Assembly (NCBI RefSeq): GCF_003316765.1
Contig: NZ_NIJF01000066.1
Span: forward strand, 198,680 to 262,679
Length of the DNA: 64,000 bases
Source of the DNA: Bacillus sp. P14.5
GTDB taxonomy: Bacteria; Bacillota; Bacilli; Bacillales; Bacillaceae_B
Direction: 5' to 3'
Part shown: piece after piece, positions 11,854-53,572 of the stretch
Layout of the letters: each line of letters begins with the position of its first letter
Position numbering within the stretch: position 1 is the stretch's first letter
Program-made: the position numbers and the translations under genes
Notes under the pieces: model-generated
Database searches by the model: none
What the model was told of the DNA's origin: nothing
The model's input: the letters and a program-made list of their open reading frames with translations, nothing else

Positions 11854-11984
11854 GAGGACTCCTTCTATCTTCGAAGTAATTCTATTCTATTGTAAAGGAA
11901 GTGGGGGAAAAGTGAAGACCTGAAGTTTAATAACCTAATATTTCATGAAGGAGCTGCAGTGGTAATAAGTTGTTTAATTTTAAA

Positions 11985-12386
11985 GGCTTTTTCGTATACT
12001 TTGTTGCTTCTTTTTATTAATTTCGTATAAATTTCGTAAGATAACGCCATTATATTCTGGTAGCCAAAAGAAATGAGCGGCTAACCAGATAGAGAGAAAA
12101 ATCTTAGTATCAGAAGGGAGATACTGCCGAAAGCAATTAAATGCGAATCCAGTCTATTTAAAAGGCCGTTTGCTAACTAATTGCTGATTTTGAATGCGCT
12201 TTTACCTTCATCCCCCTTTAAGTAGGAGGATTGAAGCGGAAGGCGTGCGACCTCCTGCGGGACTAGCGGGACAGGTGAGACCCCGCAGGCGAAGCCGAGG
12301 AGGCTCACCGCCCGCCCCGCGGAGTCGTCCGCCTGGAGCGGAAATCCATTTCGTTTAAAAAAGCCACAATCTATAAGAAAACAGCC
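11985..12386. mobile_element. A-type MITE-like element carrying a B hairpin, with 8-bp target duplication
   Basis: Left end GGCTTTTTCGTATACTTTG and right end, read inverted, GGCTGTTTTCTTATAGATTG. The element is flanked on both sides by ATTTTAAA (11977-11984 and 12387-12394), a perfect 8-bp duplication. It has no transposase; all frames are closed. Bases 12227-12348 are a complete B repeat. Target size and ends resemble ISL3-type transposons, so it is probably mobilised in trans (inference). Confidence 0.75.
12227..12348. repeat. B-type GC hairpin repeat (copy 2, intact)
   Basis: Begins GGAGGATTGAAGCGGAAGG and ends CTGGAGCGGAAATCCA. The left arm (GGCGTGCGACCTCCTGCGGG, GCGGGACAGGTGAG) pairs with the right arm (CTCACCGCCCGC, CCCGCGGAGTCGT), leaving CCGCAGGCGAAGCCGAGGAGG as the apical part. 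It sits inside the A element. Confidence 0.85.
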
Positions 12387-12497
12387 ATTTTAAAAGAAGA
12401 GGAATATCCTAAAGACAGTCAGCGGCATGTTATCTAAAGGTTTTTTCATCAACTAATTACCCGCATATAGATAGGGAAAATTCAGGCTTTTCTGTCT

Positions 12498-12517
12498 AAA
12501 TGTAAATGCTTACATTT
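12498..12517. promoter_or_regulatory. Perfect palindrome (cre-like operator) upstream of ald
   Basis: AAATGTAA-ATGC-TTACATTT is a perfect dyad with 8-bp arms. The core TGTAAATGCTTACA fits the stringent cre consensus TGWAARCGYTWNCA at 13 of 14 positions (C to T at the centre). It lies 89 bp before ald and just upstream of a likely -35/-10 pair (TTAGCA, 18 bp, TATATT). It may bind CcpA or an ald-specific regulator. Confidence 0.55.
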
Positions 12518-12605
12518 CCTATAAAATTGTTTAGCATTTTAAGAATGATAGTGTTATATTAGTTAAGAAGTTTTACAATGGATTTGAAATGAGGAGGTTT
12601 TTTTA

Positions 12606-13724
12606 ATGCGTATCGGAGTACCAATTGAAATAAAAAACAATGAAAACCGAGTGGCAATGACACCGGCAGGAGTGGTGAACCTTACCCAGTTCGGCCATGA
12701 AGTGTATATTGAATCCGGGGCGGGCCTCGGCTCTGGTTTTACTGATGAACAATATACAGCCGCTGGAGGTCACATTGTTGGAAGCGCATCTGAAGCATGG
12801 TCCATGGATATGGTCATGAAGGTAAAAGAACCGCTGCCAAGCGAATATCAGTATTTCCGTGAAGGATTAATCCTATTTACATATTTACACCTGGCTCCAG
12901 AGCCGGAGTTGACGAAAGCACTAATTGACAATAAAGTAGTCGGGATTGCTTACGAAACAGTTGAAGCAAACCGTACTCTTCCGCTATTGACGCCTATGAG
13001 CGAAGTTGCCGGAAGAATGGCTACGCAAATCGGAGCGCAGTTCCTTGAAAAAATCCATGGTGGAAAAGGAGTCCTTCTATCAGGAGTTCCTGGAGTAATG
13101 CGCAGCCGTGTAACAATCATCGGAGGCGGAGTTGCTGGAACAAACGCTGCAAAGATGGCCGTCGGACTTGGAGCGCAAGTAACGATCCTGGATTTAAATC
13201 CAGAGCGCCTTCGCCAATTGGATGATATCTTCGGAAGCGACGTCCAGACTCTGATGTCCAATCCGTTGAATATCGAAAAAGCTGTAGCTGAGTCCGACCT
13301 TGTTATCGGAGCAGTCTTGATCCCTGGTGCAAAAGCGCCGAAGCTGGTTACAGAAGACATGATCAAATCCATGATGCCTGGTTCAGTTGTGGTGGATATT
13401 GCCATAGACCAGGGAGGAATCTTTGAAACAACGGACCGCATCACGACTCATGATGACCCGACATACGTGAAGCACGGAGTTGTTCATTATGCGGTTGCGA
13501 ACATGCCTGGTGCCGTTCCGCGTACATCTACAATCGCCTTGACAAATGTTACGGTTCCTTACGCGATTCAGATTGCAAACAAAGGATACAAAGATGCATG
13601 CCTTGGAAATGAGCCATTGCTAAAAGGAATCAACACATTGAACGGATATGTTACCTATAAAGCAGTAGCAGAAGCACATGACCTCGACTACTCTGATACA
13701 AAAACACTGCTTGATCAAATTTAA
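12606..13724 (+). CDS. ald: Alanine dehydrogenase
   Basis: A 372-residue NAD-dependent enzyme that interconverts L-alanine and pyruvate plus ammonia. It lets Bacillus use alanine as carbon and nitrogen source and is needed for normal sporulation. The N-terminal [20 protein letters not shown], catalytic Lys74 (MKVKEP) and His95 (TYLHLAPE), and the NAD-binding [20 protein letters not shown] are present, as is VDIAIDQGG. Length is that of the hexameric family. A GAGGAGG ribosome site lies ahead of ATG 12606. The palindrome at 12498-12517 suggests regulation. It is monocistronic with its own terminator. Confidence 0.98.
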
Positions 13725-13733
13725 TTAATGCGA

Positions 13734-13768
13734 AGGCTGTCCCGTGAAAATGGGACAGTCTTTTTTAT
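13734..13768 (+). terminator. Terminator after ald
   Basis: GGCTGTCCC and GGGACAGTC pair around GTGAAAAT, followed by T6. Confidence 0.88.
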
Positions 13769-14017
13769 CGATTTTTTTAAAAAAGATGGTTTCCTCTCTC
13801 CTCACATCCATGTGGCGGGAAGTGAGCCTTAGCAGCTTCATAAAAAGCTAAGAGGTGAGCGATTAGATGTTCTTTTACAAGTAATTGAAAGAGCGTCTTG
13901 AATAGTAAAACAAATACTTTTGAAAAATAAGAAAACCAGCTTTGAGCTAAGGAAGAACGGCCGAATTCTTCAGGCCAGCACGAGGGCGTACGTCTGAGGA
14001 ATAAACCATGAGGAAAA

Positions 14018-14205
14018 TAAGGGGAGAATTTCCCGTTAACTGCGGATCTGAGCTCATTTTGTTGGTGAATAAGGGGAGAATTTCCCCTTATTCAAGGTTT
14101 AAGTATCTATTTTTTAGTCTTTTAAATCAAATAAGGGGAAATTCTCCCTCTATTTAAGCTGTTTTTCAGTACCATCTATTAATTAAGGGAAGTTTTTCCC
14201 TCTAT
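14018..14205. repeat. Array of four AATAAGGGGA-TTTCCCCTTATT palindromes
   Basis: Imperfect palindromes TAAGGGGAGAATTTCCCCTTA start at 14018, 14070, 14132 and 14184, giving spacings of 52, 62 and 52 bp. The intervening DNA is not repeated. The interval 13769-14410 has no gene that I can support. The array is the counterpart of the one at 3240-3430, with the same spacing and a different palindrome. Confidence 0.75.
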
Positions 14206-14410
14206 TTCTAGAGAAATCATTTACTTTTAAAAGATGAAAATACAGGGTAGAAAAAGAATGGAGCGTGGAAAAAGGATATGAGCTGTCAATCAAGAACTAA
14301 GTATTGTAGAAGCTATGCTTATTGGGAAATTGGATAAACAGAAGTTTGATGGTTTTATCGGGGAAAACCCATTCGCAGCGCAGTAAACTATTTCACAGGA
14401 GGGCTAAAGA

Positions 14411-15091
14411 ATGAAAGTTTCTTATCATGGACATTCGGTTGTCAAAGTAGTCACAGAAAATCATACGATACTAATTGACCCATTTATCAGCGGAAATGAA
14501 CTCACTGACCTTAAAGTGGACAATGAAAATCCGGATGTAATTTTGCTTACTCATGGCCATAATGACCATGTCGGTGACACAATCGACTTGGCGAAGAAAA
14601 ATGACGCACTTGTAGTGGCTCCTTTTGAATTGGCTACATACTTAGGCTGGCAGGGAGTGAACACCCACCCGCTGCATATCGGGGGAGGGTATGACTTTGA
14701 ATTTGGAAGAGTGAAGCTGACACAGGCATTTCACGGCTCTTCCTATGAAACAGAAGACAAACAGATTATCTACACTGGAATGCCGGCTGGAATCCTGCTT
14801 ACGGCAGAAGGGAAAACAATCTACCATGCTGGAGATACGGCACTTTTCTCCGATATGAAGCTGATAGGGATGCGAAATACCATTGATCTTGCCTTCCTTC
14901 CAATCGGAGACAACTTTACGATGGGACCTGATGATGCCGTTCTGGCAGCGGAATTTATAAACGCTAAAATAGTTGTGCCGATTCATTACAACACATTCCC
15001 GCCAATCAAACAGGATCCTGAAAAATTTGTTTCCATGTTGAAAGGACAAGAAGGAAAAGTAATGAATGCTGGGGATGTAATTGAACTTTAA
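14411..15091 (+). CDS. ytkL: UPF0173 metal-dependent hydrolase YtkL
   Basis: A 226-residue metallo-beta-lactamase-fold hydrolase. The metal-binding motif is [10 protein letters not shown] (HxHxDH at residues 48-53), followed by [17 protein letters not shown] (third histidine and bridging aspartate) and the terminal [11 protein letters not shown]. The start [13 protein letters not shown] is typical of the UPF0173 group. The substrate is unknown; the family includes RNase Z-like and lactonase folds but lacks the extra RNase Z domains. It has an AGGAGGGC ribosome site and a downstream terminator, so it is a single-gene unit. Confidence 0.93.
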
Positions 15092-15096
15092 TTATC

Positions 15097-15134
15097 GAGA
15101 ACACTGATCCGAGGTTGGGTCAGTGTTCTTTTGT
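15097..15134 (+). terminator. Terminator after ytkL
   Basis: GAGAACACTGATCC pairs with GGGTCAGTGTTCTT across a short loop, then TTGTTTT. Confidence 0.85.
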
Positions 15135-15144
15135 TTTGGGGAAT

Positions 15145-15232
15145 TGAGCCTGGCTCAAAAGGGAGGGTCTGAGCCTGGCTCAAAAGGGGGGATCTGAGCC
15201 AGGCTCAAAAGAGGGAAACTGAGCCAGGATCA
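15145..15232. repeat. Four TGAGCC-GGCTCA palindromes at 25-bp spacing
   Basis: TGAGCCTGGCTCA (15145 and 15170), TGAGCCAGGCTCA (15195) and TGAGCCAGGATCA (15220) repeat every 25 bp exactly, with purine-rich spacers (AAAGGGAGGGTC, AAAGGGGGGATC, AAAGAGGGAAAC). It matches the array at 4287-4349. Confidence 0.8.
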
Positions 15233-15310
15233 AAGTATTCCATCACAAAGAATAATGAGAAGGGATTGTCCCGCATACATATTAAACAAGCTAGTAAAAG
15301 GAGGAAGTAT

Positions 15311-15556
15311 ATGAAAAAGCAGCGTTATTTGATTTGTTTATTGCTGGCCGGGATGATGCTCTACTATGCCGTTCCACGACTGAATGTATTTGCAGAAGGG
15401 TTGTCAGGCTGGTTTGCCATCAGCTGGCTTGCTTTTGCAGCCATTGTTATAGCAGGTAATTTATCAGGGATGCTCTTTGCTCCGCGCAAACTGAAAGTGA
15501 AAGGGAAACAGGTGAAAAGGAAGAAAGAAGTCAGAAAGATTCGTTCTTTTGGCTGA
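15311..15556 (+). CDS. Small two-helix membrane protein, function unknown
   Basis: An 81-residue protein. Helix 1 is at about residues 5-20 (RYLICLLLAGMMLYYAVP) and helix 2 at about 32-55 (WFAISWLAFAAIVIAGNLSG). A strongly basic tail follows (LKVKGKQVKRKKEVRKIRS), which would lie in the cytoplasm. ATG 15311 has an AAAAGGAGG ribosome site at proper distance; the frame is open upstream but lacks a site. I do not recognise it by name. It lies 83 bp ahead of ytoI and may be cotranscribed with it. Confidence 0.7.
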   Translation: MKKQRYLICLLLAGMMLYYAVPRLNVFAEGLSGWFAISWLAFAAIVIAGNLSGMLFAPRKLKVKGKQVKRKKEVRKIRSFG

Positions 15557-15639
15557 GAATTCAGGAGAAAATTGAAACACCAGGCTTTTCACTTTATAAT
15601 TAAGATACTATTTCAGGCAGTATAAGAAGGGTGAAAAGC

Positions 15640-16959
15640 TTGGCAACCAAACATGAGCAAATAATTGAGTATATCGATACACTCCCCATTGGAGAAAAAA
15701 TATCCGTCAGGCAGATCGCCAAGGCTTTAAATGTCAGTGAAGGCACGGCATACAGAGCGATCAAGGATGCTGAGACAAAAGGGTATGTAAGCACGATTGA
15801 AAGAGTCGGGACCATCCGGATTGAAAGAAAGAAAAAAGAGAACATCGAAAAGCTGACTTTTGCAGAAGTGGTCAACATTATTGATGGACAAGTTCTTGGC
15901 GGGAGAACAGGGCTGCATAAAATGCTCAATAAGTTTGTTATTGGCGCAATGAAACTCGAGGCCATGATGCGTTACACAGAGGCCGGGAACCTGCTGATTG
16001 TCGGCAACCGGACAAAAGCTCATGAGCTCGCCTTGAAAGCAGGCGCAGCTGTGTTGATTACCGGTGGATTTGATACTGAAGAAAGTGTCAAACGCCTTGC
16101 CGATGAGCTTGAATTGCCTGTCATATCGACGAGTTATGATACTTTTACCGTTGCCGCAATGATCAACCGTGCGATCTATGACCAGCTGATTAAGAAAGAT
16201 ATCGTATTGGTGGAAGATATTTTGACCGCAGAAGATCAGACGGCCTTTTTACAAGTTGGTGATACTTTGGAAGATTGGTATGAAAAAAATCAATCGACCT
16301 TCCACAGCCGCTTTCCTGTCATTGACCGGAACAGGAAGGTGCAGGGGATGGCGACTTCCAAGGACGTGATGGGTCAGGAAAAGAGTGCAGCTATTGAAAA
16401 GGTAATGACAAGAAAGCCGATTACTGTCAGAGCAAATACCAGTGTGGCCTCTGCAGCCCATATGATGATCTGGGAAGGCATTGAAGTCCTTCCGGTGGTT
16501 GATGACCAAAACAGGCTTCAAGGAATAATCAGCCGCCAGGATGTTCTAAAGGCGATGCAAATGATCCAGCGCCAGCCGCAGGTCGGGGAAACGATCGATG
16601 ACAATATTACGAGCAATATGACAACTTCAGATACCAAAGACTCTGCTGAGGCAAGCTACCAATTTCCAGTCACTCCGCAAATGACCAACGGGCTCGGAAC
16701 CATTTCCTATGGTGTATTTACAACTCTGGTGACAGAAGCGGCCAACAGGGCGTTGAAATACTACAAAAAAGGAGATCTGGTGGTTGAAAATATGACAGTT
16801 TATTTCATCAGATCCATTCAAATGGAGAGCGTGATCGACATCCGGCCGAAAGTATTGGATGTAGGGCGCAAGTTTGGGAAGGTGGATGTAGAAGTCTATC
16901 ATGAAACGGTGTTAGTGGGAAAAGCCATGATGATCTGCCAGCTCATCGACAAACATTAA
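15640..16959 (+). CDS. ytoI: HTH-DRTGG-CBS-hotdog protein YtoI
   Basis: A 439-residue multidomain cytosolic protein. In order it has an N-terminal helix-turn-helix (GEKISVRQIAKALNVSEGTAYRAIKDAE, residues about 19-50), a DRTGG domain (about 75-180), a pair of CBS domains that would bind adenine nucleotides (about 195-310: MTRKPITVRANTSVASAAHMM, LQGIISRQDVLKAMQ), and a C-terminal MaoC/thioesterase-like hotdog fold. The family is conserved in Bacillus; its target is unknown. TTG 15640 is chosen because AGAAGG (15625-15630) is 9 nt ahead and MATKHEQI matches the expected N-terminus. GTG 15631 abuts the ribosome site. Confidence 0.92.
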   Translation: MATKHEQIIEYIDTLPIGEKISVRQIAKALNVSEGTAYRAIKDAETKGYVSTIERVGTIRIERKKKENIEKLTFAEVVNIIDGQVLGGRTGLHKMLNKFVIGAMKLEAMMRYTEAGNLLIVGNRTKAHELALKAGAAVLITGGFDTEESVKRLADELELPVISTSYDTFTVAAMINRAIYDQLIKKDIVLVEDILTAEDQTAFLQVGDTLEDWYEKNQSTFHSRFPVIDRNRKVQGMATSKDVMGQEKSAAIEKVMTRKPITVRANTSVASAAHMMIWEGIEVLPVVDDQNRLQGIISRQDVLKAMQMIQRQPQVGETIDDNITSNMTTSDTKDSAEASYQFPVTPQMTNGLGTISYGVFTTLVTEAANRALKYYKKGDLVVENMTVYFIRSIQMESVIDIRPKVLDVGRKFGKVDVEVYHETVLVGKAMMICQLIDKH

Positions 16960-16966
16960 TTACAAA

Positions 16967-17157
16967 GGCTGTTTTCGTATAGACTGTTGCTTTCGGAAAA
17001 ACCCCAAGAGCTGGATTTTTCCCCTGAATACTAATGTTTATCTCTCTTAACAGGGCGAGCAGCTCTTTTCTTTCTTGCTTACCAGGATATATAGGTGAAT
17101 TCTGGTGATGTTTTTCGAAATTCATATTAAATAGCAACAAAGTTTACGAAAAGAGCC
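16967..17157. mobile_element. A-type MITE-like element, short form without B, with perfect 8-bp target duplication
   Basis: Left end GGCTGTTTTCGTATAGACTG, right end (inverted) GGCTCTTTTCGTAAACTTTG with further homology TTGCTATTTAATATGAA. ATTACAAA flanks both sides (16959-16966 and 17158-17165), and the left copy overlaps the last base of the ytoI stop codon. The 191-bp interior has no open frame for a transposase. This is the clearest single insertion in the window. Confidence 0.8.
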
Positions 17158-17226
17158 ATTACAAAAGCGCAAGCGCCCTGAACAGGCCCGCCAGGCAAAT
17201 CTTATTTTGCCCAAAACCTAAACAAT

Positions 17227-17262
17227 AAAAAACCTGCATTCAAAAATGAATGCAGGTTTTAT
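17227..17262 (-). terminator. Terminator of ytpI
   Basis: AAAACCTGCATTC and GAATGCAGGTTTT pair; on the minus strand the stem is followed by a T6 run, directly after the ytpI stop. Confidence 0.85.
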
Positions 17263-17268
17263 AAGCCG

Positions 17269-17574
17269 TTACTGGTTATCGAGTTCCTGTGCTTCTTTTA
17301 TAGCCTGAGGCAGGAAATGCTTGTACACTTTCCAGCCCATCCAGGCACTTCCCAGTCCGATTATGATGAAAAGGGCAGAAATGATGTAAGTGAAAGTGGT
17401 CTGGAACAGAAACAGCTGATTGATTCCGAAAAAGGCGACAAAAAGTCCCAGAGCGATACTGGATTTACCTGAAAGCCATTTTTTCTCGATGAATCGTCTG
17501 CTTCTCACGGACTTCACTTTATAATAGAAATAAAAAGAAAATGAAAGAATGATTAAAAATACAAAAACGGGCAT
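17269..17574 (-). CDS. ytpI: YtpI-like membrane protein
   Basis: A 101-residue protein with three hydrophobic helices at about residues 2-18 (VFVFLIILSFSFYFYY), 38-56 and 61-82 (YIISALFIIIGLGSAWMGW), linked by basic loops. It matches the YtpI family, found next to ytoI and nrnA (ytqI) in Bacillus. Its function is not known. An AGGAGG-like site (TTTGGAGGATATAAGAT on the minus strand) precedes the ATG at 17574. It is transcribed divergently from nrnA, sharing an interval of 112 bp. Confidence 0.85.
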   Translation of the reverse strand: MPVFVFLIILSFSFYFYYKVKSVRSRRFIEKKWLSGKSSIALGLFVAFFGINQLFLFQTTFTYIISALFIIIGLGSAWMGWKVYKHFLPQAIKEAQELDNQ

Positions 17575-17686
17575 ATCTTATATCCTCCAAAATATCGTTG
17601 GTTGAATTTTTGAATCTCCGTTTACTATTCTAACGGTATTTCTGCTGGATTCCAAATGAACTTTTTATGTCTAAAAGGAGTTTACC

Positions 17687-18625
17687 ATGAAAGATCAAAT
17701 TATCGAGATGATTAAAGAATATCAAACCATCATCGTGCACCGCCATGTCAGGCCGGATCCGGATGCATACGGGTCTCAGGGAGGGCTGGTGGAAATCCTG
17801 AGAGCCTCCTTCCCGGATAAGAATATTTATGCTGTTGGAAAAGAAGAACCGACACTGCATTACCTTAGAAGGCTGGACATAATTGAGGATAGTGTTTTTA
17901 AAGATGCTTTGATCATTGTCTGTGATACAGCCAACTCAGCGAGGATCTGTGATGACCGTTACAAGCTGGGTGATAAGCTCATCAAGATCGATCATCATCC
18001 TAACGAAGATCCTTATGGTGATTTATTATGGGTGGATACAGAGGCAAGCTCGGTCAGCGAAATGATCTATATGTTCTATCAGCATGGAAAAGATAAAGGA
18101 CTCCAAATGACTGATGAAGCGGCCCGGCTGCTCTATGGGGGAATCGTCGGGGATACCGGAAGATTTCTATATCCAAGCACGACTCAGCGCACATTTGATG
18201 TAGCGGGAGAGCTCATCCGTTATGATTTCGACCGCAATGAGCTCTATAATAAAATGTATGAAGCTGATCCACAGGTGATTAAATTAGAAGGATATGTTCT
18301 CCAAAATTATGAGATGCTCGAGAATAACGTCGGGTGCATGACGATCACAAAGGAAATCCTTCAGCAATTCAAACTAGTTCCAGCTGAAGCGTCCCTTCTT
18401 GTAAGCTCACTCGGGAATGTAAGAGGAATCAAGGCCTGGGTCTTCTTTATAGAAGAGGCAGACCAGATCCGGGTTCGCTTCAGGTCAAAAGGTCCGGTGA
18501 TCAATACTGTCGCCAAAAAGTATAATGGAGGCGGACATCCCCTGGCAGCAGGAGCTTCCATTTATGACTGGGCACAAAAGGATGAAGTTCTGGAAGACTT
18601 GATGCAGGTTTGTGCAGAGAATTGA
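17687..18625 (+). CDS. nrnA: Bifunctional oligoribonuclease/pAp phosphatase NrnA
   Basis: A 312-residue DHH-DHHA1 phosphoesterase. It degrades short RNA oligomers left by mRNA turnover and removes 3'-phosphate from pAp, a by-product of sulfate assimilation. DHH motifs are visible: VHRHVRPDPDAYGSQ (Asp24 and Asp26), IVCDTANSARI, and KIDHHPNEDPYGD. The C-terminal DHHA1 substrate loop is YNGGGHPLAAGASI. Activity needs Mn2+ in the family. An AAAAGGAG ribosome site lies before ATG 17687. No clear terminator follows before the repeat array at 18987. Confidence 0.96.
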   Translation: MKDQIIEMIKEYQTIIVHRHVRPDPDAYGSQGGLVEILRASFPDKNIYAVGKEEPTLHYLRRLDIIEDSVFKDALIIVCDTANSARICDDRYKLGDKLIKIDHHPNEDPYGDLLWVDTEASSVSEMIYMFYQHGKDKGLQMTDEAARLLYGGIVGDTGRFLYPSTTQRTFDVAGELIRYDFDRNELYNKMYEADPQVIKLEGYVLQNYEMLENNVGCMTITKEILQQFKLVPAEASLLVSSLGNVRGIKAWVFFIEEADQIRVRFRSKGPVINTVAKKYNGGGHPLAAGASIYDWAQKDEVLEDLMQVCAEN

Positions 18626-18986
18626 TAAATGAAAATCAGAAGAGGGGATTCGCCTGGCGATGACCCTCTGTTTTATTTAGCCGGGGTTTCTGGACATCTA
18701 AACTATATATTCGGGAGAGATATAGTAAAAGAGTTTATGCAGACCTGTGAAGTGATAAATGAAGAGAATGAATACTTCAAGAAGGCTTCTGGAGAATTGC
18801 GACTGCACAAAAAAAGAGAAGCAGCCAGCTTTTCTAAAGTCTGTATTCTAAAAGATTGCTGTTTTTTTGCTATTTTCCCCTCCTCCGCATTTTATATAGT
18901 AGGAATGCCGCTTGGAAGCTGTTGAGTTTCCTTCTGCCCAGCCTGTATAAAAAGTGGAAGCCTAGGTAAATCCCCTGTCAGGCAGA

Positions 18987-19402
18987 TAAACACCCTATTA
19001 TAATCCGGAAAACGTCTTATAGTATAGTGATTAGCGAGTAAACACCCTAGTATAATCAGAAAAACGTCTTATAGTATGGTGATTAGCGAGTAAACACCCT
19101 AGTATAATCAGAAAAACGTCTTATAGTATGGTGATTAGCGAGTAAACACCCTAGTATAATCAGAAAAACGTCTTATAGTATGGTGATTAGCGAGTAAACA
19201 CCCTATTATAATCAGGAAAACGTCTTATAGTATAGTGATTAGCGAGTAAACACCCTAGTATAATCAGAAAAACGTCTTATAGTATAGTGAATAGCCCGAA
19301 AACACCCCATTTTAATCAGGAAAACGTCTTATAGTATGATGAATAGCGGATAAACGCCCTATTCATACAAAACAATATTAAACAGCATCCCAAAAAGCTT
19401 AT
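18987..19402. repeat. Tandem array of eight 52-bp units
   Basis: The anchor TAAACACCCT (or a close variant) starts at 18987, 19039, 19091, 19143, 19195, 19247, 19299 and 19351, exactly 52 bp apart each time. The unit reads from GATTAGCGAG through AGTATAATCAG and AACGTCTTATAG. Units 3-5 are almost identical and the outer ones have drifted. Inside the unit TAATCA and TGATTA are inverted around 21 bp. There are no unique spacers, so it is not CRISPR. The 18626-19476 interval has no gene that I accept. Confidence 0.88.
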
Positions 19403-31395: not shown

Positions 31396-31720
31396 GGCTC
31401 TTTTCGCAAAGGCTGTGGCTAGTGAGAAGTAATGGATTTCCGCTCCAGGCGGACGACTCCGCGGGGCGGGCGGTGAGCCTCCTCGGCTGCGCCTGCGGGG
31501 TCTCACCTGTCCCGCTAGTCCCGCAGGAGATCGTACGCCTTCCGCTCCAATCCTCCTAGGTAAAGGGGGATGAAGGGAAATAGCATTCTAAAGGAACATT
31601 TATTTAAAAAAAGCCTATAAGGTTTTCCCTCTAAACAGGGAACAGCTCTTTTCTTCTTGCTTACCAGAATATTTACAAGGAATAATGTTTTTATCTTACG
31701 AAGGTCATATATCAAATAAC
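31396..31720. mobile_element. A-type element carrying a B hairpin, right end lost
   Basis: Left end GGCTCTTTTCGCAAAGGCTG. Bases 31433-31555 are an intact, inverted B repeat (GGATTTCCGCTCCAGGCGG ... CTTCCGCTCCAATCC). The interior after B (AAAGGGGGATGAAGG, then ACAGCTCTTTTCTTCTTGC and TACCAGAATATTT) matches the interior of the elements at 16967 and 52939. No right terminus or target duplication is seen before the C array begins, so the end was deleted or overwritten. Confidence 0.65.
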
Positions 31721-31774
31721 CCCCTGAGAATAAAAGGAAAGACCTCCTTTTTTTCACCGGGGAACATTTGCCTG

Positions 31775-32468
31775 TCGGGGCGAAACAGGGCGCTTCCGCT
31801 TTTTATCAATCCAGCTCCAGCGGCCAGCGCCTAGCAGATTTCGGTCTCTCTCCTTGCGATAAGTCAACATCGACTCACTCTGTTCGTCGTGTTTCCTTTT
31901 TCTCTTGCGAGATCCCATAAATCTGTACGGCGCTGAACGGCCGCTTCCGCTTTTTGTCAATCCAGCTCCAAGGCCACAGCGGCTAGCGTACTGCCCATCC
32001 CCTCCTTTGCAAATCCAGTTTCGAGGTCCCAACGGCTAGCAGATTTCGGTCTCTCTCCTTGCGATAAGTCATCATCAACTCACTTTGTTCGTTGTGATTC
32101 CTTTATCTCAATGCGGGGCTGGTACAGTCCGTACGCCGCTGAGCGGGGCCTTTCCGCTTTTCATCGAATCCAGCTCCAGCGGCCAGCGCCTAGCAGATTT
32201 TGGTCTCTCTCCTTGCGATAAGTCAACATCGACTCACTCTGTTCGTCGTGTTTCCTTTATCTCATGCGAGATCCCATAAATCTGTACGGCGCTGAACGGC
32301 CGCTTCCGCTTTTTATCAATCCAGCTCCAAGGCCCCAGCGGCTAGCGTACTGCCCATCCCCTCCTTGCGATAATTCATCATCGAATCGCTGTCGCTCTTC
32401 GTGATTCCTTTATCTCATGCGGGGCTGGTACAGTCCGTACGCCGCTGAGCGGGGCCTTTCCGCTTTTT
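31775..32468. repeat. Tandem array of about four C-type repeat units
   Basis: Units of about 145-190 bp begin CCAGCTCCAGCGGCC (or ...CAAGGCC), contain GGTCTCTCTCCTTGCGATAA, GTTCGTCGTG and CTTTATCTCATGCG, and end GGCCGCTTCCGCTTTTT. Starts are near 31810, 31972, 32168 and 32321; a different C subtype end (ACATTTGCCTGTCGGGG) lies at 31764-31780. The ends are inverted-repeat-like (CAGCGGCC against AAGCGGCC). The unit is GC-rich and has no supported gene. Together with the element at 31396 it fills 31348-32569. Confidence 0.75.
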
Positions 32469-39076: not shown

Positions 39077-39205
39077 CGCTCTTTTCACAAGGGTAGTGGC
39101 TGCTGTAAAAGTAATGGATTTCCGCTGCAGGCGCGCGACGCCGCGTTGCGAGAACCGGGCCTCCTCGGCTTTGTAAAAAGCGGAAGCGGCCTTTCAGCGA
39201 CGTAC
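39077..39205. repeat. Degenerate A/B/C repeat remnant
   Basis: CGCTCTTTTCACAAGGGTAG is an A-type left end. GTAATGGATTTCCGCTGCAGG starts a B repeat in inverted orientation, which passes at CCTCCTCGGCTTTGTAAAAAGCGG into a C-type end. The copy is truncated. It occupies most of the mdh/maoC-phoP gap; bases 39206-39448 hold the phoP promoter region (TATAAT at 39377-39382). Confidence 0.6.
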
Positions 39206-44288: not shown

Positions 44289-44372
44289 CGTATTTACTTT
44301 TATAAGTAGACAGTTATTTTTCTGGGAACAATCTTGCGTGCAAGCTGAATGATTTTTTGGTTCTTATTTTCT

Positions 44373-44913
44373 GACTCTTTTCGTAAACTTTGTTGCTATT
44401 TAGTATGAAATCATAAGTTAACGACATGATTCACCGGAGATCTTCTGGTAAGGAAAAGTATAGAGCTGCTTCCCAGTTAGAGAGAAAAACCTTAGTATCA
44501 AGGAAGAATTTTGTCATTATATTTTTCGAACGTAAATACAAAAAATGTCTTTTTATTGTCTTTTTTTAGCCTATAATTTACCTTCATCCCCTTTAACATA
44601 GGAGGATTGGAGCGGAAGGCGTACGACCTCCTGCGGGACTAGCGGGACAGGTGAGACCCCGCAGGCGAATCCAGCTCCAGCGGCCACCGACTAGCAGATT
44701 TCAGTCTCTCTCCTTGCGATAAGTCATCATCGAATCGCTAACGCTCTTCGTGATTCCTTTATCTCATACGAGAGCCTTAAAATCTGTACGTCGCTGAACG
44801 GCCGCTTCCGCTTTTTATGAAGCCGAGGAGGCTCACCGCCCGCCCCGCGGAGTCGTACGTCTGGAGCGGAAATCCATTCCTTTTCAACAGCTGCGATCTA
44901 TGAGAAAAGAGCC
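44373..44913. mobile_element. A-type element containing a B hairpin that is itself split by a C repeat
   Basis: Left end GACTCTTTTCGTAAACTTTG, right end (inverted) GGCTCTTTTCTCATAGATCG. Flanks TATTTTCT and TATTTTTA agree at six of eight positions, a drifted target duplication. Inside is B from 44603 to 44875. B is cut at its apex by a 150-bp C repeat (44669-44818), which is bordered by GA on both sides (44667-44668 and 44819-44820). Three repeat families are therefore nested. It fills most of the 44185-45018 gap. Confidence 0.78.
44669..44818. repeat. C-type repeat inserted in the apex of a B hairpin
   Basis: Starts ATCCAGCTCCAGCGGCC, contains GTCTCTCTCCTTGCGATAA and TTCGTGATTCCTTTATCTC, and ends ACGGCCGCTTCCGCTTTTTAT. 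Removing it with one GA joins GCAGGC to GAAGCC and restores the intact B sequence seen at 12227-12348. Confidence 0.78.
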
Positions 44914-44950
44914 TATTTTTAAAAAATAATTTCTGCAGAGGTCCTTGATC

Positions 44951-47646: not shown

Positions 47647-47667
47647 TGAAGAGGCGGGTGACCTGAT

Positions 47668-48492
47668 TTGCCGGAACTGCCAGAAGTGGAAACCGTCAGA
47701 AGAACATTGGCGGAATTAGTCACAGGAAAGAAGATTGATTCAGTATCGGTTTTTTGGCCTAAAATGGTCAAGCTGCCGGCAGAGGTGGAAGAATTCAAAT
47801 TGCTGCTGCAAGGAGAAATCATTCAGGGAGTCGACCGCAGGGGGAAATTTCTCATCCTGCAGACAGACCACTACTCCCTGGTCTCCCACTTAAGGATGGA
47901 AGGCCGATATGGGGTTTTCCCTGGTGAAGAACCTGTCGAGAAGCACACTCATGTGATTTTTCATTTTGAAGACGGCTCTCAATTAAGATATAAAGATGTC
48001 AGGAAATTCGGGACCATGCACCTGTTTCCAAAAGGGGAAGAAACTCTGCATTTGCCGTTGTCGCAGCTGGGCCCGGAACCATTTTCACCAGATTTTACAA
48101 TAGACCACCTCACTGAAAAGCTGGCCAAGACCGAGCGGGCAGTAAAGGCGGTTCTGCTGGATCAGACCGTTTTGGTCGGCTTGGGGAACATCTATGTAGA
48201 TGAGGCCCTCTTCAGAAGCGGGATCCACCCGGCGAGAAAGGCAAAGACAATCAAAAAAACTGAAATGAAAAAGCTGCATAAGGAAATCATCGATACGTTA
48301 AGTGAGGCGGTTGAGCAGGGAGGCAGCACCATCCGCTCCTACGTGAACTCACAGGGACAAATCGGAATGTTCCAGCAGCAGCTGTTCGTTTACGGACGAA
48401 AGAATGAAGAATGCAGAACATGCGGCAAACCCATCGAAAAAAATGTGACAGCGGGAAGAGGCACACATTTCTGTTCGAATTGTCAGAAGTAA
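47668..48492 (+). CDS. mutM: Formamidopyrimidine-DNA glycosylase
   Basis: A 274-residue base-excision enzyme that removes 8-oxoguanine and formamidopyrimidines. The N-terminal PELPEVETVRRTL supplies the catalytic Pro and Glu after removal of the initiator; the H2TH region LVGLGNIYVDEALFRSGIHP follows; the C-terminal zinc finger is C249-x2-C252-x16-C269-x2-C272. The start is TTG 47668, required to leave Pro as first residue. It lies 21 bp after polA, so the two repair genes are cotranscribed. Confidence 0.97.
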   Translation: MPELPEVETVRRTLAELVTGKKIDSVSVFWPKMVKLPAEVEEFKLLLQGEIIQGVDRRGKFLILQTDHYSLVSHLRMEGRYGVFPGEEPVEKHTHVIFHFEDGSQLRYKDVRKFGTMHLFPKGEETLHLPLSQLGPEPFSPDFTIDHLTEKLAKTERAVKAVLLDQTVLVGLGNIYVDEALFRSGIHPARKAKTIKKTEMKKLHKEIIDTLSEAVEQGGSTIRSYVNSQGQIGMFQQQLFVYGRKNEECRTCGKPIEKNVTAGRGTHFCSNCQK

Positions 48493-48654
48493 CCGCAGGC
48501 TGATTGCGTTGATTGAAGCACGATAATAATAGGTTCTTAACAATTGATAAGCTCTCTCCATATACTAACGTAGCTATGAACGTATGGAGGAAACCAGCGT
48601 GTTACAACTGGTTTTTATCCTCTTGATTGAAAGACGGAGGAGGAGCTTTACATC

Positions 48655-49287
48655 ATGGATGGAACACTTTTATTATTCATGCTTGCATTTGCCGTAAGCC
48701 TCGACAGCTTTAGTACCGGACTTACTTATGGCCTAAGGAAAATGGGGATGCCGCTAAGATCCATTGTGATTATTTCAGTTTGTTCTGCAGGCTCTCTCCT
48801 GGCCGCCATGTCTATAGGCGGAGCAGCGGAAAGCTTTCTATCAGAGGGAGCTGCCGACAGGATTGGAGGGCTTATTCTCATTGCCCTGGGCGCCTTTGTC
48901 CTTCTGCAATTTTTCACAACTGGAAAAGATTATGCTGCAGATGAAGAGAAAATCTTATTTAATTTTGAAATAGAATCGATCGGGCTCGTAATCAATATAC
49001 TCAAAAGGCCGATGGCGGCAGATTTTGATCGATCAGGAACAATCACCGGTGTAGAAGCAGTCATGCTGGGTCTCGCCCTCTCTCTTGATGCGTTTGGTGC
49101 AGGAATTGGGGCTGCCTTATTGGGCTATTCTCCTTTGCTGCTTGCTTTTTCGGTCATGATGATGAGTGTTGTATTCCTGTCAGCGGGTTTGAGAATCGGA
49201 AAGAACTGTGCCCATATGGGTTGGGTGAAGAAGGTATCTTTTCTGCCGGGAGTGCTCTTAATAGTGATTGGCGTGCTGCGGTTCTGA
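48655..49287 (+). CDS. ytaF: Sporulation membrane protein YtaF
   Basis: A 210-residue membrane protein of the YtaF/MntP superfamily with about six helices arranged as two similar halves: LLFMLAFAVSLDSFSTGLTYG in the first and VMLGLALSLDAFGAGIGAALLGY in the second, each with the SLDxF signature. An insert with DFDRSGTITG lies between. In B. subtilis YtaF is linked to sporulation. The relation to MntP suggests cation transport, but that is inference. It sits between mutM and coaE as in B. subtilis, with a GGAGGAGC ribosome site. Confidence 0.9.
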   Translation: MDGTLLLFMLAFAVSLDSFSTGLTYGLRKMGMPLRSIVIISVCSAGSLLAAMSIGGAAESFLSEGAADRIGGLILIALGAFVLLQFFTTGKDYAADEEKILFNFEIESIGLVINILKRPMAADFDRSGTITGVEAVMLGLALSLDAFGAGIGAALLGYSPLLLAFSVMMMSVVFLSAGLRIGKNCAHMGWVKKVSFLPGVLLIVIGVLRF

Positions 49288-49309
49288 TTGGAAGAAAGGA
49301 TGACTGATA

Positions 49310-49912
49310 ATGCAATCAATTATCGGCCTGACTGGCGGGATTGCCAGCGGAAAAAGTACAGTATCAAGCCTTCTTGCCCAAAAAGGGTTCACGGTGGTGG
49401 ATGCAGATTTAGCTGCGCGAAAGGTCGTGGAACCCGGAGAGCCAGCTTATCTTAAAATTGTCGAGACATTCGGTCAGGATATTTTGAATAAGGATGGAAC
49501 TCTGGACAGGGCAGCACTCGGAAGCATCATTTTTCATAATGAAGAGCGGAGAAAAGAGCTTAACGAAATAGTCCATCCCGCAGTGAGAGCCGAGATGCTG
49601 GCCGAAAAAGAGAAAGCCTTTGAGAATGGTATGCAGACTGTCGTGATGGATATTCCGCTGCTTTTTGAAAGTAATTTGACTTGGATGGTTAAAAAAACGG
49701 TTGTTGTGTATGTAGATAAAGAAACACAATTATCCAGGCTTATGAAGAGAAACGGACTGACGGAGGAAGAAGCTTCAGCAAGAGTGAACTCCCAGATGAG
49801 TCTTGAAGAAAAAAAGACTTTGGCAGACGCGGTATTGGATAACAGAGGGACCATCGAGGAAACGGCCGTCCAGTTGGATGGACTTCTTGCTCGGTGGAAC
49901 TTAATGCCCTAG
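49310..49912 (+). CDS. coaE: Dephospho-CoA kinase
   Basis: A 200-residue P-loop kinase for the last step of coenzyme A synthesis. The Walker A loop is GGIASGKS (residues 9-16). DADLAARKVVEPGEPAY contains the CoA-side aspartate; IVHPAVRAEMLAEKEKAFEN, MDIPLLFE and VYVDKETQLSRLMKRNGLTEEEASARV form the substrate and lid segments. Length is normal. ATG 49310 with AAAGGATGA ahead, 22 bp after ytaF. A terminator follows directly, so it ends the polA cluster. Confidence 0.96.
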   Translation: MQSIIGLTGGIASGKSTVSSLLAQKGFTVVDADLAARKVVEPGEPAYLKIVETFGQDILNKDGTLDRAALGSIIFHNEERRKELNEIVHPAVRAEMLAEKEKAFENGMQTVVMDIPLLFESNLTWMVKKTVVVYVDKETQLSRLMKRNGLTEEEASARVNSQMSLEEKKTLADAVLDNRGTIEETAVQLDGLLARWNLMP

Positions 49913-49916
49913 ACTT

Positions 49917-49948
49917 GAAAAGAAGCTGAACAGTCAGCTTCTTTTTAG
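49917..49948 (+). terminator. Terminator after coaE
   Basis: AAAAGAAGCTGA and TCAGCTTCTTTTT pair around ACAG, ending in a T-run. Confidence 0.9.
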
Positions 49949-50132
49949 TTTGATTTTATTTAGGAGGTTATATATTTAACTTTCCTGGATAGCTTTAATT
50001 GAGCTTTAACCTGGTCCTCAGGGTCAAATAAGCGCCGGAGAATAAAAGGCAGGCTCTTTTCGCGAAAACTTTTGATAAAAGTTTCAGAGATGCCGATATA
50101 AAAAAGAGGCAGCAGGGGAGAAACTTACCAAT

Positions 50133-50548
50133 AAGTCATGGAGTCAGGAAGATAACGGTATGATTAGTTTGGAAACATACCATTAAGCCATAGAGCTAAG
50201 AAGATAATGGCATGATTAGTTTGGAAACGTACCATTAAGTCAGGGAGCCAGGAAGATAATGGCATGATTAGACTGGAAACGTACCATTAAGTCAGGGGGC
50301 CAAGAAGATAATGGCATGATTAGTCTGGAAACGTACCATTAAGTCAGGGGGCCAAGAAGATAATGGCATGATTAGTCTGGAAACGTACCATTAAGTCATG
50401 GAGCCAAGAAGATAATGGCATGATTAGTCTGGGAATGTACCAACAAGTCAAAGAGCCAAGAAGATAATGGCTTGATTAGTCTGGGAATGTACCAACAAGT
50501 CAAAGAGCCAAGAAGATAATGGCTTGATAATTTGAAGAAAAAGCCACA
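50133..50548. repeat. Tandem array of eight 52-bp units
   Basis: The anchor AAGTCA (or variant) begins at 50133, 50185, 50237, 50289, 50341, 50393, 50445 and 50497, exactly every 52 bp. The unit reads GATTAGTCTGGAAACGTACC, then ATTAAGTCAGG, then CCAAGAAGATAATGGCAT. It has the same length and copy number as the array at 18987, and shares GATTAG and a nearby AAAC in the same phase. No unique spacers. The 49949-50912 interval holds no gene that I accept; an A-type fragment lies at 50052. Confidence 0.88.
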
Positions 50549-50846
50549 ATTTTTGTGAATAGAGCGAAAACGAAAGACCACTATCTTTCCCTTAAGCAGA
50601 TTTGCTGGTCTAGATGCTTGTTCTTTTATGATTTTAAAAGAGAATGAGGAATTTCATGATCAGATTACTCATATTTTAATAAGGCAGTTTTCCCTAATTA
50701 CAGCCAGATAAATTCAGGCAGCCCTAAGTTAAAGCAAATACAATTAACTTTGAGAAGGCAAAAGGCATTAAGAGTATTACGGAATGAAAATTCGGAATAA
50801 TTAATCATTTAAAATATGCAAATTAATCATTCCGTATTTTGTTAAA

Positions 50847-50857
50847 TATGTTATACT
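50847..50857. promoter_or_regulatory. CcpN-type operator over the gapB promoter
   Basis: TATGTTATACT matches the CcpN box TRTGHYATAYW at all 11 positions. Its last six bases are the likely -10 (TATACT, 50852-50857), with a possible -35 TTCCGT 16 bp upstream. CcpN represses gapB and pckA during glycolytic growth in B. subtilis. An inverted repeat (ACGGAATGA / TCATTCCGT) spans about 50778-50835 upstream. Confidence 0.65.
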
Positions 50858-50912
50858 AATGCTAATTGAAACACATAAAAAGTATAACGTTTATATAGAG
50901 GGGAGCCGAATT

Positions 50913-51935
50913 ATGAAGGCGAAAATAGCAATCAACGGTTTTGGGCGTATTGGGAGAATGGTATTCAGGAAAGCGATCCTGGATGAGAATATTGATATTG
51001 TAGCAATCAATGCGAGCTATCCTCCTGAAACCCTGGCTCATTTGATTAAGTATGACACAAATCATGGCACATTCAACGCTGAAGTAAGAACTGAAGAAAA
51101 TGCCATCATTGTGAATGATAAAACTGTAAAATTAATCAGCAACCGCGATCCAAGAGAACTTCCTTGGAAGGATCTTGAGATTGATATAGTAATAGAAGCT
51201 ACCGGCAAATTCAATTCTAAGGAAAAAGCCAGCCTGCATCTTGAAGCAGGGGCAAAGAAAGTAATCCTGACTGCACCGGGGAAAAATGAAGATGTGACAA
51301 TTGTGATGGGTGTAAATGAAAGCGCTCTAAAAATTGAAGAGCATAGTATCATTTCAAATGCTTCCTGCACTACAAACTGTCTTGCTCCTGTAGCGAAAGT
51401 ACTCGATGAACAGTTTGGAATTGAAAATGGCTTGATGACGACTGTCCATGCCTATACAAATGATCAAAAGAATATTGATAACCCGCATAAAGATTTGAGA
51501 AGGGCCAGGGCTTGCGGGCAATCAATCATCCCAACAACAACAGGTGCTGCGAAAGCGTTGTCATTGGTGCTTCCTCAACTGAAGGGCAAGCTCCACGGAA
51601 TGGCTTTGCGTGTACCGACTCCGAATGTATCGCTTGTCGACCTGGTTGTTGATGTGAAAAGAGAAGTTACAGCGGAAGAAATTAACGAAGCACTGATTAC
51701 AGCTTCTCAAGGTTCGCTGGAAGGAATCCTGCAGTTTACAACAGAACCTCTGGTTTCCATTGACTTCAATACGAACCCTCATTCAGCGATTATCGATGGC
51801 TTGTCCACTATGGTCATTGGTGACCGCAAAGTGAAGGTGCTTGCATGGTATGACAATGAGTGGGGCTATTCCTGCCGGGTAGTGGACTTGGCTAAATATG
51901 TTGCTCAGCAGCTGAAGTCCAGTGTGAATGTTTAA
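50913..51935 (+). CDS. gapB: Glyceraldehyde-3-phosphate dehydrogenase GapB (NADP, gluconeogenic)
   Basis: A 340-residue GAPDH. KAKIAINGFGRIGRMVFRKA is the cofactor loop. After strand two it reads INASYPPETLAHLIKYD rather than NDL, the change that goes with NADP preference in GapB. The catalytic cysteine is in SNASCTTNCLAP, followed by TTVHAYTNDQKNIDNPHKDLRRARA and WYDNEWGYSCRVVDL. It works in the gluconeogenic direction in B. subtilis. ATG 50913 with AGGGGAG ahead; the longer frame is untranslated leader. Likely repressed by CcpN through 50847-50857. Confidence 0.96.
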   Translation: MKAKIAINGFGRIGRMVFRKAILDENIDIVAINASYPPETLAHLIKYDTNHGTFNAEVRTEENAIIVNDKTVKLISNRDPRELPWKDLEIDIVIEATGKFNSKEKASLHLEAGAKKVILTAPGKNEDVTIVMGVNESALKIEEHSIISNASCTTNCLAPVAKVLDEQFGIENGLMTTVHAYTNDQKNIDNPHKDLRRARACGQSIIPTTTGAAKALSLVLPQLKGKLHGMALRVPTPNVSLVDLVVDVKREVTAEEINEALITASQGSLEGILQFTTEPLVSIDFNTNPHSAIIDGLSTMVIGDRKVKVLAWYDNEWGYSCRVVDLAKYVAQQLKSSVNV

Positions 51936-51944
51936 AAGTTTTCG

Positions 51945-51974
51945 AAAAGCCGGGGAGTTTTCCCGGCTTTTTTG
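51945..51974 (+). terminator. Terminator after gapB
   Basis: AAAGCCGGG and CCCGGCTTT pair around GAGTTTT, followed by TTTG. A single relict of the 52-bp family (TAATTAGGGAGTAAACACCCT) follows at about 52001-52030. Confidence 0.9.
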
Positions 51975-52395
51975 TATTTCTTCAAGGGAAATTAGTTGTG
52001 TCATAGGGTAATTAGGGAGTAAACACCCTGCTACAGAGTAAAAACCATCGAAGTAGCAAGGTAATCATGCCCATACAAAGCCCATCAGTTATCTTCAACA
52101 ATAAAAAAACGCTGGAGCCGTTCTCAAACAGTAACAGGCCACTGACAAGTATATGAGTAAACCACCGGACTAATGGGACACATAGTAAGGGCTGAAGTCA
52201 AAAAACGGGGAAAGCTCAAATCATTTTGTCAGAGGATGCTAATAATATCTGAAAAGACTTTCGATATGCACCTTAACTGGCCATGCTTCACCAAAAAATC
52301 ACTCAATTAAAATATTTAACTTTTTTATTGCAAATCTGAAATAAACAAAGTATACTATTTTTCGTGAACTTCTTGAACGCAATTGTAAATATTGT

Positions 52396-52449
52396 TAGCT
52401 ACTTAAAGGGTTAGGACCTCTTCGGACTAACTTTCCCCCGTGGTAGTTA
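52396..52449 (+). other. Structured 5' leader of speD (unassigned)
   Basis: An outer helix TAGCTAC (52396-52402) / GTAGTTA (52443-52449, one G-U) encloses GTTAG (52410-52414) / CTAAC (52427-52431), whose loop contains a TTCG tetraloop closed by TC/GA. It lies about 65 nt ahead of speD, between -10-like sequence and the ribosome site. It could be a regulatory RNA element; I know of no named class that it fits. Confidence 0.4.
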
Positions 52450-52512
52450 TTATGTTGCCGAAGGATAGGTTCATTTTGACGAAAAAAATTATGTCAAAGG
52501 GGGAAACAACAA

Positions 52513-52893
52513 ATGGAAACAATGGGTAGACATGTAATCTCTGAATTATGGGGTTGCGATTTTGACAAGTTAAACGATGTAAATGAGATTGAAAGAACGT
52601 TTGTAGATGCTGCATTGAAATCAGGTGCAGAAGTTCGCGAGGTAGCCTTTCACAAATTTGCTCCTCAAGGTGTAAGCGGAGTGGTGATCATTTCTGAGTC
52701 TCACTTGACGATTCACAGCTTCCCTGAACATGGTTATGCCAGCATTGATGTGTATACATGCGGTGATCTTGATCCTAATATCGCTGCTGATTATATAGCT
52801 GAAGCCCTAAATGCACAAACACGCGAGAATATCGAATTACCGCGCGGCATGGGTCCTGTACAAGTGAAACAATCCAAAGTGACCGCATTATAA
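52513..52893 (+). CDS. speD: S-adenosylmethionine decarboxylase proenzyme
   Basis: A 126-residue class 1B prokaryotic AdoMet decarboxylase, which provides the aminopropyl donor for spermidine. The proenzyme cleaves itself before Ser63 in [18 protein letters not shown], turning that serine into the pyruvoyl group. [18 protein letters not shown] and [12 protein letters not shown] are family segments; Cys82-region YTCG holds the catalytic cysteine. AAAGGGGG ribosome site before ATG 52513. A possible structured leader is upstream, and a terminator closes it as a single-gene unit. Confidence 0.96.
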
Positions 52894-52901
52894 AAAATTA
52901 C

Positions 52902-52936
52902 GGAGCCTTCTAATTATTAGAATGGCTCTTTTTTTA
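52902..52936 (+). terminator. Terminator after speD
   Basis: GGAGCCTTCTAAT and ATTAGAATGGCTC pair, followed by T8. An A-type element is inserted in or beside its T-run. Confidence 0.88.
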
Positions 52937-52938
52937 TG

Positions 52939-53393
52939 CGCTCTTTTCGTAAAGGTTGTGGCTGTTTTAAAAGTAATGGATCTCCACTCCAGTCGCGCGA
53001 CTCCGCGGGGCGGGCGTTGAACCTCCTCGGCTTTGCCTGTATAAAAAGTGGAAGCGCCTTGGTCAGCCCCGACAGGCAAATGTCCTCAAGAGAAAAAAAG
53101 GCGGTCTATCCTGTTATTCTCTTGAGGTTATTTGACCCCGAGGGGCTAGGCGCTGCAACTGGATTGGGGGTTACGTTCCAGTGGGTACGTAACCTTGGTC
53201 TCACCTGTCCCGCTAGTCCCGCAGGAGGTCGCGCGCCTTCCGCTCCAATCCTTCTACGTAAAGGGTAATGAAAGTAAAACGCATTTATACAGAAGTGCAC
53301 CTCTTTTTTTCATACTTACCAGAATATTTCAGGTGAATAATAACGGTATCCTTCTAAATTCATATTAAAAGCAACAAAGTTTCGAAAAAGGTC
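52939..53393. mobile_element. A-type element with nested B and C repeats and perfect 8-bp target duplication
   Basis: Left end CGCTCTTTTCGTAAAGGTTG, right end (inverted) GACCTTTTTCGAAACTTTG. TTTTTATG flanks both sides (52931-52938 and 53394-53401), a perfect 8-bp duplication in the T-run of the speD terminator. Inside, an inverted B repeat runs from about 52977 to 53254. Its apex is replaced by a C2-type repeat (about 53041-53190) bearing AAGCGCC, CCCCGACAGGCAAATG and GACCCCGAGGGGCTAGGCGC. No transposase gene. Confidence 0.78.
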
Positions 53394-53572
53394 TTTTTAT
53401 GTGAGAAATTGCTCTTTAAGAAACTGTTGCATGTCTGTGGTGAGCAAGGTATTTGCGTTTTTTAATGAATCCAGCCCCAGCCTCCGAAGGTCTGAATTTA
53501 CAGGTAAGGACTATCCCCTCGTTCATTTGTTTCTTAAAGGAAAACGCTGCGCTCACAACAGAAGATACTGCT

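Follow-up and report, generated by a model that had tools for sequence, protein, structure and literature searches.

The stretch of Bacillus sp. P14.5 analyzed here (64,000 nucleotides of contig NZ_NIJF01000066.1, positions 198,680 to 262,679 of the forward strand; hereafter, the window) contains a set of short repeats, 191 to 541 bp in length, that resemble miniature inverted-repeat transposable elements (MITEs). They are built from two units, A and B, which stand alone or are joined end to end. An original prediction, made from the letters of the window, had described elements at 11985-12386, 16967-17157, 44373-44913, and 52939-53393 as MITE-like and devoid of a transposase. Rereading of all four bore out their coordinates, ends, and duplications, and their short, noncoding nature. 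No open reading frame (ORF) of at least 80 amino acids (aa) was listed in the elements at 11985, 16967, and 44373 (191 bp being too short for one), and overlapping ORFs of 110 aa (52936-53268) and 80 aa (31515-31757) lie on the elements at 52939 and 31396, respectively.

The simplest case is an A element alone (16967-17157, plus strand), 191 bp long and used as the reference copy. It is flanked by ATTACAAA on the left (16959-16966, the first base being the last base of a TAA stop codon) and on the right (17158-17165). The element at 11985 is a composite in the order ATTTTAAA, A, TATTTAAAA, B, ATTTTAAA. Its left target duplication (11977-11984) is identical to the right one (12387-12394), and its A unit (11985-12154, minus strand), placed by semiglobal alignment to the 191-bp copy, aligns over the full length with 68% identity and has a degenerate inner end. 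An AT-rich 9-bp spacer (12155-12163) forms the junction with the B unit (12164-12386, minus strand), a MITE of ∼222 bp that is 84% identical to the B unit of another locus, L196, and encloses a 118-bp hairpin core (12229-12346).

The 52939 composite lies on the plus strand between two copies of TTTTTATG (52931-52938 and 53394-53401). Its B unit (52939-53279) is broken near the apex by a further repeat, D (53040-53178), and a small hairpin (∼53170-53193), and its A unit consists of the right half only (53297-53393; A 93-191). At 44373, an A unit (44373-44549) and a B unit (44577-44913) lie on the minus strand, both with degenerate inner ends, and the B unit holds a repeat C (44673-44815) near its apex. 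The left flank of this composite, TATTTTCT (44365-44372), matches TATTTTTA (44914-44921) at 6 of 8 positions. A copy at 31396 had been thought to have lost its right end. The truncation exists, in the A part, where a plus-strand fragment (31618-31675; A 66-127) is followed by an array of repeat D and then C, but the B unit (31396-31615, plus strand) is complete and without a flanking target duplication.

Copy number, target duplications, and empty sites

The home genome is a 4.87-Mb draft in 121 contigs, in which the 191-bp copy found at least 40 A matches, 79 to 100% identical and each of at least 178 bases. Forty of 317 candidates were scored, and the best 30 were taken as loci, a sample biased to intact copies. 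The 8-base flanks of these copies agree at 7 or 8 of 8 positions in 24 cases and at all 8 in 14, compared with 40 and 5, respectively, of 870 pairings in which flanks were swapped between copies. In a further control on the next 8 bases outward, none of the 30 reached 7 or more matches. The duplications are 91% A+T, versus 59% in the 200-bp flanks, and the target preference leans to TTTTAAAA. A genome-wide collection of copies and flanks had been proposed as a check of the original prediction, and the 8-bp duplications recur in it.

The number of ends is also beyond chance. With a 24-base end motif and up to 3 mismatches allowed, the home genome contains 370 matches (186 plus 184), and the reversed motif, used as a control, has 0 plus 0. 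The motif is present in 33 of 36 genomes of the family, with none in the other three; counts include 564 in genome G042, 438 in G008, 382 in G043, 237 in G002, and 172 in G009, and across all 36 the reversed control matched once apiece in three genomes and nowhere else. A combines confirmed terminal inverted repeats with a high copy number per genome, as MITEs do. The exact motif occurs in at least 116 stretches of named contigs, nearly all Bacillaceae by title and three titled Pseudomonas, and short end-bounded elements with 8/8 duplications were also found in, among others, Alkalihalobacillus, Cytobacillus, Litchfieldia, Metabacillus, and Oceanobacillus. Viral contigs held no exact end motif, phage records no match to A, and a transposase search of phage records returned five with distant transposases only. 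When plasmids were searched with the end alone, 18 weak records came up, one of which, from Niallia, became informative only after a transposase search.

G042 and G043 are the nearest relatives in the genome set. Synteny with both holds throughout the window, and most of the longer aligned blocks are 84 to 93% identical, with a few in G043 below that. The home site at 16967 reads ATTACAAA-[191 bp]-ATTACAAA-AGCG, and the corresponding site in G042 is CATTAATTACAAAAGCG, exactly the home sequence minus the element and one ATTACAAA. This site is also empty in G043, with a single substitution within the 8-mer. Among 30 same-genus loci examined, out of 36 matches to the gene preceding the element, only the home locus has A within 900 bp behind it; at six others a B-like hairpin lies there instead. 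The 52939 site is empty in both relatives, with junctions near the predicted bases and small differences. The comparison of empty sites suggested with the original prediction has come out in its favor, and the elements are real and mobile.

At 11985, G043 carries the same A-B tandem. G042 is without it; compared with the predicted empty site, its sequence there is shorter by 6 bases, and another composite lies ∼45 to 50 bp away. Since the 11985 tandem is common to the home genome and G043 and absent from G042, and the insertions at 16967 and 52939 occur in neither relative, insertions date from both before and after the split of the home species, G042, and G043. Two A copies in the home genome are still 99.5% identical. 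At 31396, the alignments to both relatives cover most of the B unit, through 31593. In the gap at 44373, G043 has neither A nor B and G042 has a B unit elsewhere, the flanks being too diverged to resolve.

Placement was scored for 44 picked elements (30 A and 14 B or AB), with simple long ORFs standing in for genes. Twenty-nine lie between codirectional, 10 between convergent, and 3 between divergent ORFs; one lies inside a 104-aa ORF, and one was not placed. Median distances to a stop (170 bp) and a start (180 bp) are similar, and we therefore claim no preference for terminators. An association with terminators or stop codons, as suggested earlier, fits 16967, at its TAA, and, if the hairpins preceding them are read by eye, 31396 and 52939. 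It does not fit 11985, which lies between the starts of a divergent permease gene and an alanine dehydrogenase-like gene, or 44373, which lies upstream of a DNA polymerase I gene. The accompanying view that the insertions do no harm where they sit is borne out only in part.

It is quite unlikely that the elements have been retained for a role as regulatory RNA hairpins (terminators or mRNA stabilizers), as opposed to being neutral debris. The 191-bp copy does fold better than its shuffles (z of −4.4 on the plus strand and −2.8 on the minus strand), but inverted ends by themselves raise folding scores. Conservation of A columns 21 to 50 (0.95 to 0.98) and a terminator-like match inside the 16967 copy (17052-17066; 2 in the region versus 0.5 in shuffles) also favor such a role, against which no terminator-like match occurs around 11985, no Rfam family matches the elements at the gathering score, and the sites at 11985, 16967, and 52939 vary between sister species. 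Around 11985, promoter-like sites are no more frequent than expected by chance.

Tandem arrangement of A and B

The B unit measures ∼222 bp and has ends of its own; several copies also have a separate target duplication. Solitary B units were found at L196 (224 bp; TATAATTT, 8/8) and L206 (223 bp; TTTCGAAA, 8/8), and the B copies at L192 and L182 have 7/8 duplications. The long copies consist of an A and a B placed end to end, with one outer end coming from each. Judged by these ends and duplications, B is a MITE distinct from A, to which it is joined in tandem, and its ends are of the same type.

The original prediction had placed the B hairpin inside A, and on that basis B would be a passenger at one fixed place and the long copies would be A with an insert. 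Some support comes from the 118-bp B core, which is a repeat in its own right with sharp borders and also occurs without these ends. Among 41 core copies (85 bp or longer, in a mixed sample of loci partly picked by end motif), 15 have end motifs within 130 bp (6 mismatches or fewer) on both sides, another 15 have one on a single side, and 11 have none. Against it, B units with outer ends and duplications of their own occur alone, as at L196 and L206, and composites take one outer end from each unit. At 11985 and L180, moreover, both units are near full length and lie side by side. We regard the passenger explanation as very improbable.

Similar AT-rich spacers of 9 bp separate A and B at six home loci, namely 11985, L180, L187 (read from the junction), L205, L272, and L273; their letters are TATTTAAAA, TATTTAAGA, TATTCTATA (twice), TATATTACA, and TTTTTAATA, and a similar spacer is present in G043 at the shared 11985 site. 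Perfect outer duplications, with different letters, flank two of the six composites (11985 and L205). Shared spacers together with perfect but different outer duplications indicate that the pair probably moved as a unit, in agreement with the earlier suggestion that A and B were amplified together. The 52939 composite, in which the A-B junction is lost, adds a third perfect outer duplication.

Alternatively, the tandems could be independent double insertions at preferred targets that were never mobilized together. The locus L184 has the appearance expected of a fresh second insertion, with A adjoining B and a copy of TTATTAAA on either side of A, at its boundary with B and behind it; A and B are arranged in other ways at L198 and L199, and several composites are without a good outer duplication. 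Against this, similar 9-bp spacers recur at six unrelated sites, two of them within perfect outer duplications of different letters, and 52939 has a third such duplication; we consider independent insertion unlikely.

IS1595-family elements with nearly the same ends

Full-length partners were sought with PF12762 first and then with the transposase of G009 as the query. Three IS1595 elements with 8/8 duplications were found in the same genus, in G009 (1,665 bp; AAAAAGAA), G021 (1,482 bp; TTTAGATA), and G011 (1,521 bp; AAATAGAA); the ATG-started transposase ORF is shorter in G011 (286 aa) than in G009 (335 aa). A fourth, on plasmid NZ_CP095746.1 of Niallia sp. Man26 (1,765 bp; TTTTTAAA, 8/8), is annotated as having an IS1595 family transposase, which is 92% identical to that of G009, and a DinB-family gene lies between the same ends. 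Less complete cases are decayed elements in G032 (1,754 bp) and, from another family, G014 (2,174 bp), both with 6/8 duplications, a 1,612-bp element with a 7/8 duplication in G017 (another family), and a 649-bp deletion derivative in G005 (TTTTTAAT, 8/8). A transposase match of any kind, remnants and a distant home copy counted, was found in 13 of the 36 family genomes.

Compared end by end with five of the IS1595 elements, the ends of A are identical at 18 to 23 of 24 bases. The two ends of A are unlike each other; against those of the G011 element they agree at 23 and 22 of 24 bases, equal best among the five. The transposases of G009 and G011 match PF12762 (59.1 and 59.6 bits; cutoff, 27) and NF033547 (210.9 and 204.8 bits; cutoff, 75), and both score above the cutoff for NF050000, an N-terminal zinc-binding domain; PF12760 is below its cutoff in G009 and is not listed for G011. 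D153, E154, D232, N271, and K277, which we take to be the predicted catalytic residues of IS1595 transposases, are invariant in all four aligned transposases, and the transposase of ISBsm2 from Bacillus smithii is 60% identical to that of G009. The ends, the duplication length, and the presence of such elements in the same genus make an IS1595 parent well supported. The search for a full-length insertion sequence with the same ends, also proposed earlier, has thus yielded elements in G009, G011, G021, and the Niallia plasmid with nearly the same ends.

Additional genes are carried by IS1595 elements at L210 (2135-2485), L211 (1059-1319), and L290 (3542-4066); the products are a protein of 116 aa that matches nothing in Pfam or NCBIfam, a small protein resembling a zinc finger (TIGR04104, below cutoff), and a DinB-family protein.

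The ends had previously been likened to those of ISL3-type transposons, a link that is not supported. ISL3 elements make 8-bp duplications, as seen at three loci here, and ISL3 transposases are present in 6 of the 36 family genomes. However, a PF01610 (ISL3) search found nothing in the home genome, the definable ISL3 ends (3 of 12 loci examined, 24 having been found) begin with GGTTCAACG or GGTTCTATA, all of them GGTTC starts, and the element ends match IS1595 elements instead. That an ISL3-family transposase mobilized these MITEs is extremely improbable, and this parent was ruled against on the basis of the differing ends and of PF01610 searches of 21 genomes and the 36 family genomes, two overlapping sets.

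We therefore propose, with a probability of roughly 0.9, that A and B are nonautonomous MITEs that inserted into AT-rich 8-bp targets, and that a DDE transposase of the IS1595 family, acting in trans, likely carried out their cutting, joining, and amplification. The sequence features that argue for this are the inverted ends, the 8-bp duplications, the exact empty site, the lineage-specific insertions, and the IS1595 elements with nearly the same ends. The transposase would recognize the GGCTSTTTTCG ends of A and B. Tandems may have begun when one element inserted beside the other, and their movement as one unit would mean that the transposase can pair an end of A with an end of B. For B, the prediction is that an older hairpin repeat, its core, was captured by IS1595-type ends.

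Several observations weigh against this proposal. The main gap is the missing home partner: the home assembly has no IS1595 transposase with MITE-type ends, and its sole IS1595 transposase match is only 42% identical to the G009 query and belongs to an element (L213, 933-2504 [C1]; 1,572 bp) with different ends, GGCTATGTTAAAG, and its own 8/8 duplication, AATGTATA. The matching insertion sequence was either lost or dropped by the draft assembly, and because it is missing there, mobilization in trans is inferred. G042, rich in ends, has only transposase remnants, and G008 and G043 have no match. The MITEs and the insertion sequences share only ∼20 to 43 bp, at the ends, so that neither an origin of the A interior from the insertion sequence nor descent by internal deletion is shown. 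The search covered two insertion sequence families, ISL3 and IS1595. Six of the 30 best A copies have flanks agreeing at fewer than 7 of 8 positions. Among the composites, the outer flanks, with ends placed by automatic alignment for the spacer composites and L184, match at only 4 of 8 positions in L180, L187, and L273 and at 3 of 8 in L184, and those of L272 could not be scored. Finally, A and B are arranged otherwise in L184, L191 (399 bp; TTTGGTAA, 8/8; A in the opposite orientation), L198, and L199, which indicates that A-B joining happened more than once.

The case for a new IS1595-type MITE family of unusual modular build is solid, and the modular A-B build with its captured hairpin is the most unusual part; in the literature searched, mostly openly readable papers, no description of this family was noticed. 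The likely engine of intergenic repeats that are very abundant in Rossellomorea and related Bacillaceae can now be named as IS1595 and not ISL3, cross-mobilization by IS1595 is directly testable, and there is an empty site resolved to the base, with insertions dated to either side of the divergence of sister species. The tandems suggest that a pair of different MITEs can become fused and then spread together. More tentatively, and at somewhat less than even odds, IS1595-type ends might be interchangeable arms, any two compatible ends moving what they bracket, so as to give a layered, modular, noncoding transposon. If so, hairpin capture (the B core), A-B joining, and loading with C and D would follow from one property and shape intergenic DNA across Bacillaceae.

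Comparison with known systems supports the assignment and sets the elements apart. AT-rich 8-bp duplications are reported for ISApl4, of the IS1595 family, in PMC12561309, and the parents of the window elements likewise have a DDE_Tnp_IS1595 transposase; the window elements themselves have no transposase, share only the ends, and are so numerous that a genome can contain hundreds of end motifs. In general, MITEs of prokaryotes are similarly short and noncoding, with inverted ends, duplications, and high copy numbers, and in the archaeal set of PMC3852290 often only the terminal repeats are common to a MITE and its autonomous partner. In contrast to these, two MITEs stand here in tandem and were probably mobilized together, and the build includes a captured hairpin with further repeats near its apex. 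The Bacillus cereus repeats bcr1 to bcr18 are also interspersed mobile repeats of 100 to 400 bp in Bacillaceae, according to PMC6542083, but the window elements differ in having IS1595 ends and duplications of 8 bp. Another comparison is with mobile insertion cassettes, which are named in PMC3281130 and PMC6542083. One cassette-like locus, L123 of Bacillus sp. AFS055030 (3481-4585), is bounded by the ends, with a 7/8 duplication, and contains a nucleotidyltransferase gene (PF06042) and only a C-terminal piece of an IS1595 transposase, whereas A and B themselves are gene free.

Repeats C and D and other B copies

Repeats C (∼143 bp) and D (∼125 to 139 bp) both interrupt B near its apex, in line with the earlier statement that other repeats are carried along. 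All 6 interruptions among 67 B match pieces fall at B 81-117 (some of these loci overlap the window), and the B apex may serve as a landing place for C and D. Both also occur in mixed tandem arrays apart from B.

Three further B copies lie in the window. A minus-strand B unit (58055-58376) is broken near its apex by D (58170-58299), and a plus-strand half unit (39078-39171; B 2-94) is broken near its apex, the sequence after it starting, by eye, like C. A B hairpin core on the minus strand (8449-8566) has the end motif on one side only and was not seen in the matching stretch of G042 or G043.

C and D have AAAAGYGGAAGCGSC-type starts and GGAGCTGGAT-type finishes, as seen at 39171, in three window interruptions (44673-44815, 53040-53178, and 58170-58299), and at L205 (1829-1969). 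The small extra hairpin, GTTACGTTCCAGTGGGTACGTAAC, lies beside the apex interruption at ∼53170 and in L205. Directly behind the truncated A fragment, a mixed tandem array of D and C occupies 31712-32467. Behind the empty 16967 site of G042 (L284, reverse strand), five D copies stand in tandem, ∼122 to 125 bp apart, and the window has a partial copy. At Rfam gathering scores, the only match in the window is the ribosomal protein L20 leader (RF00558) at 62608-62741.

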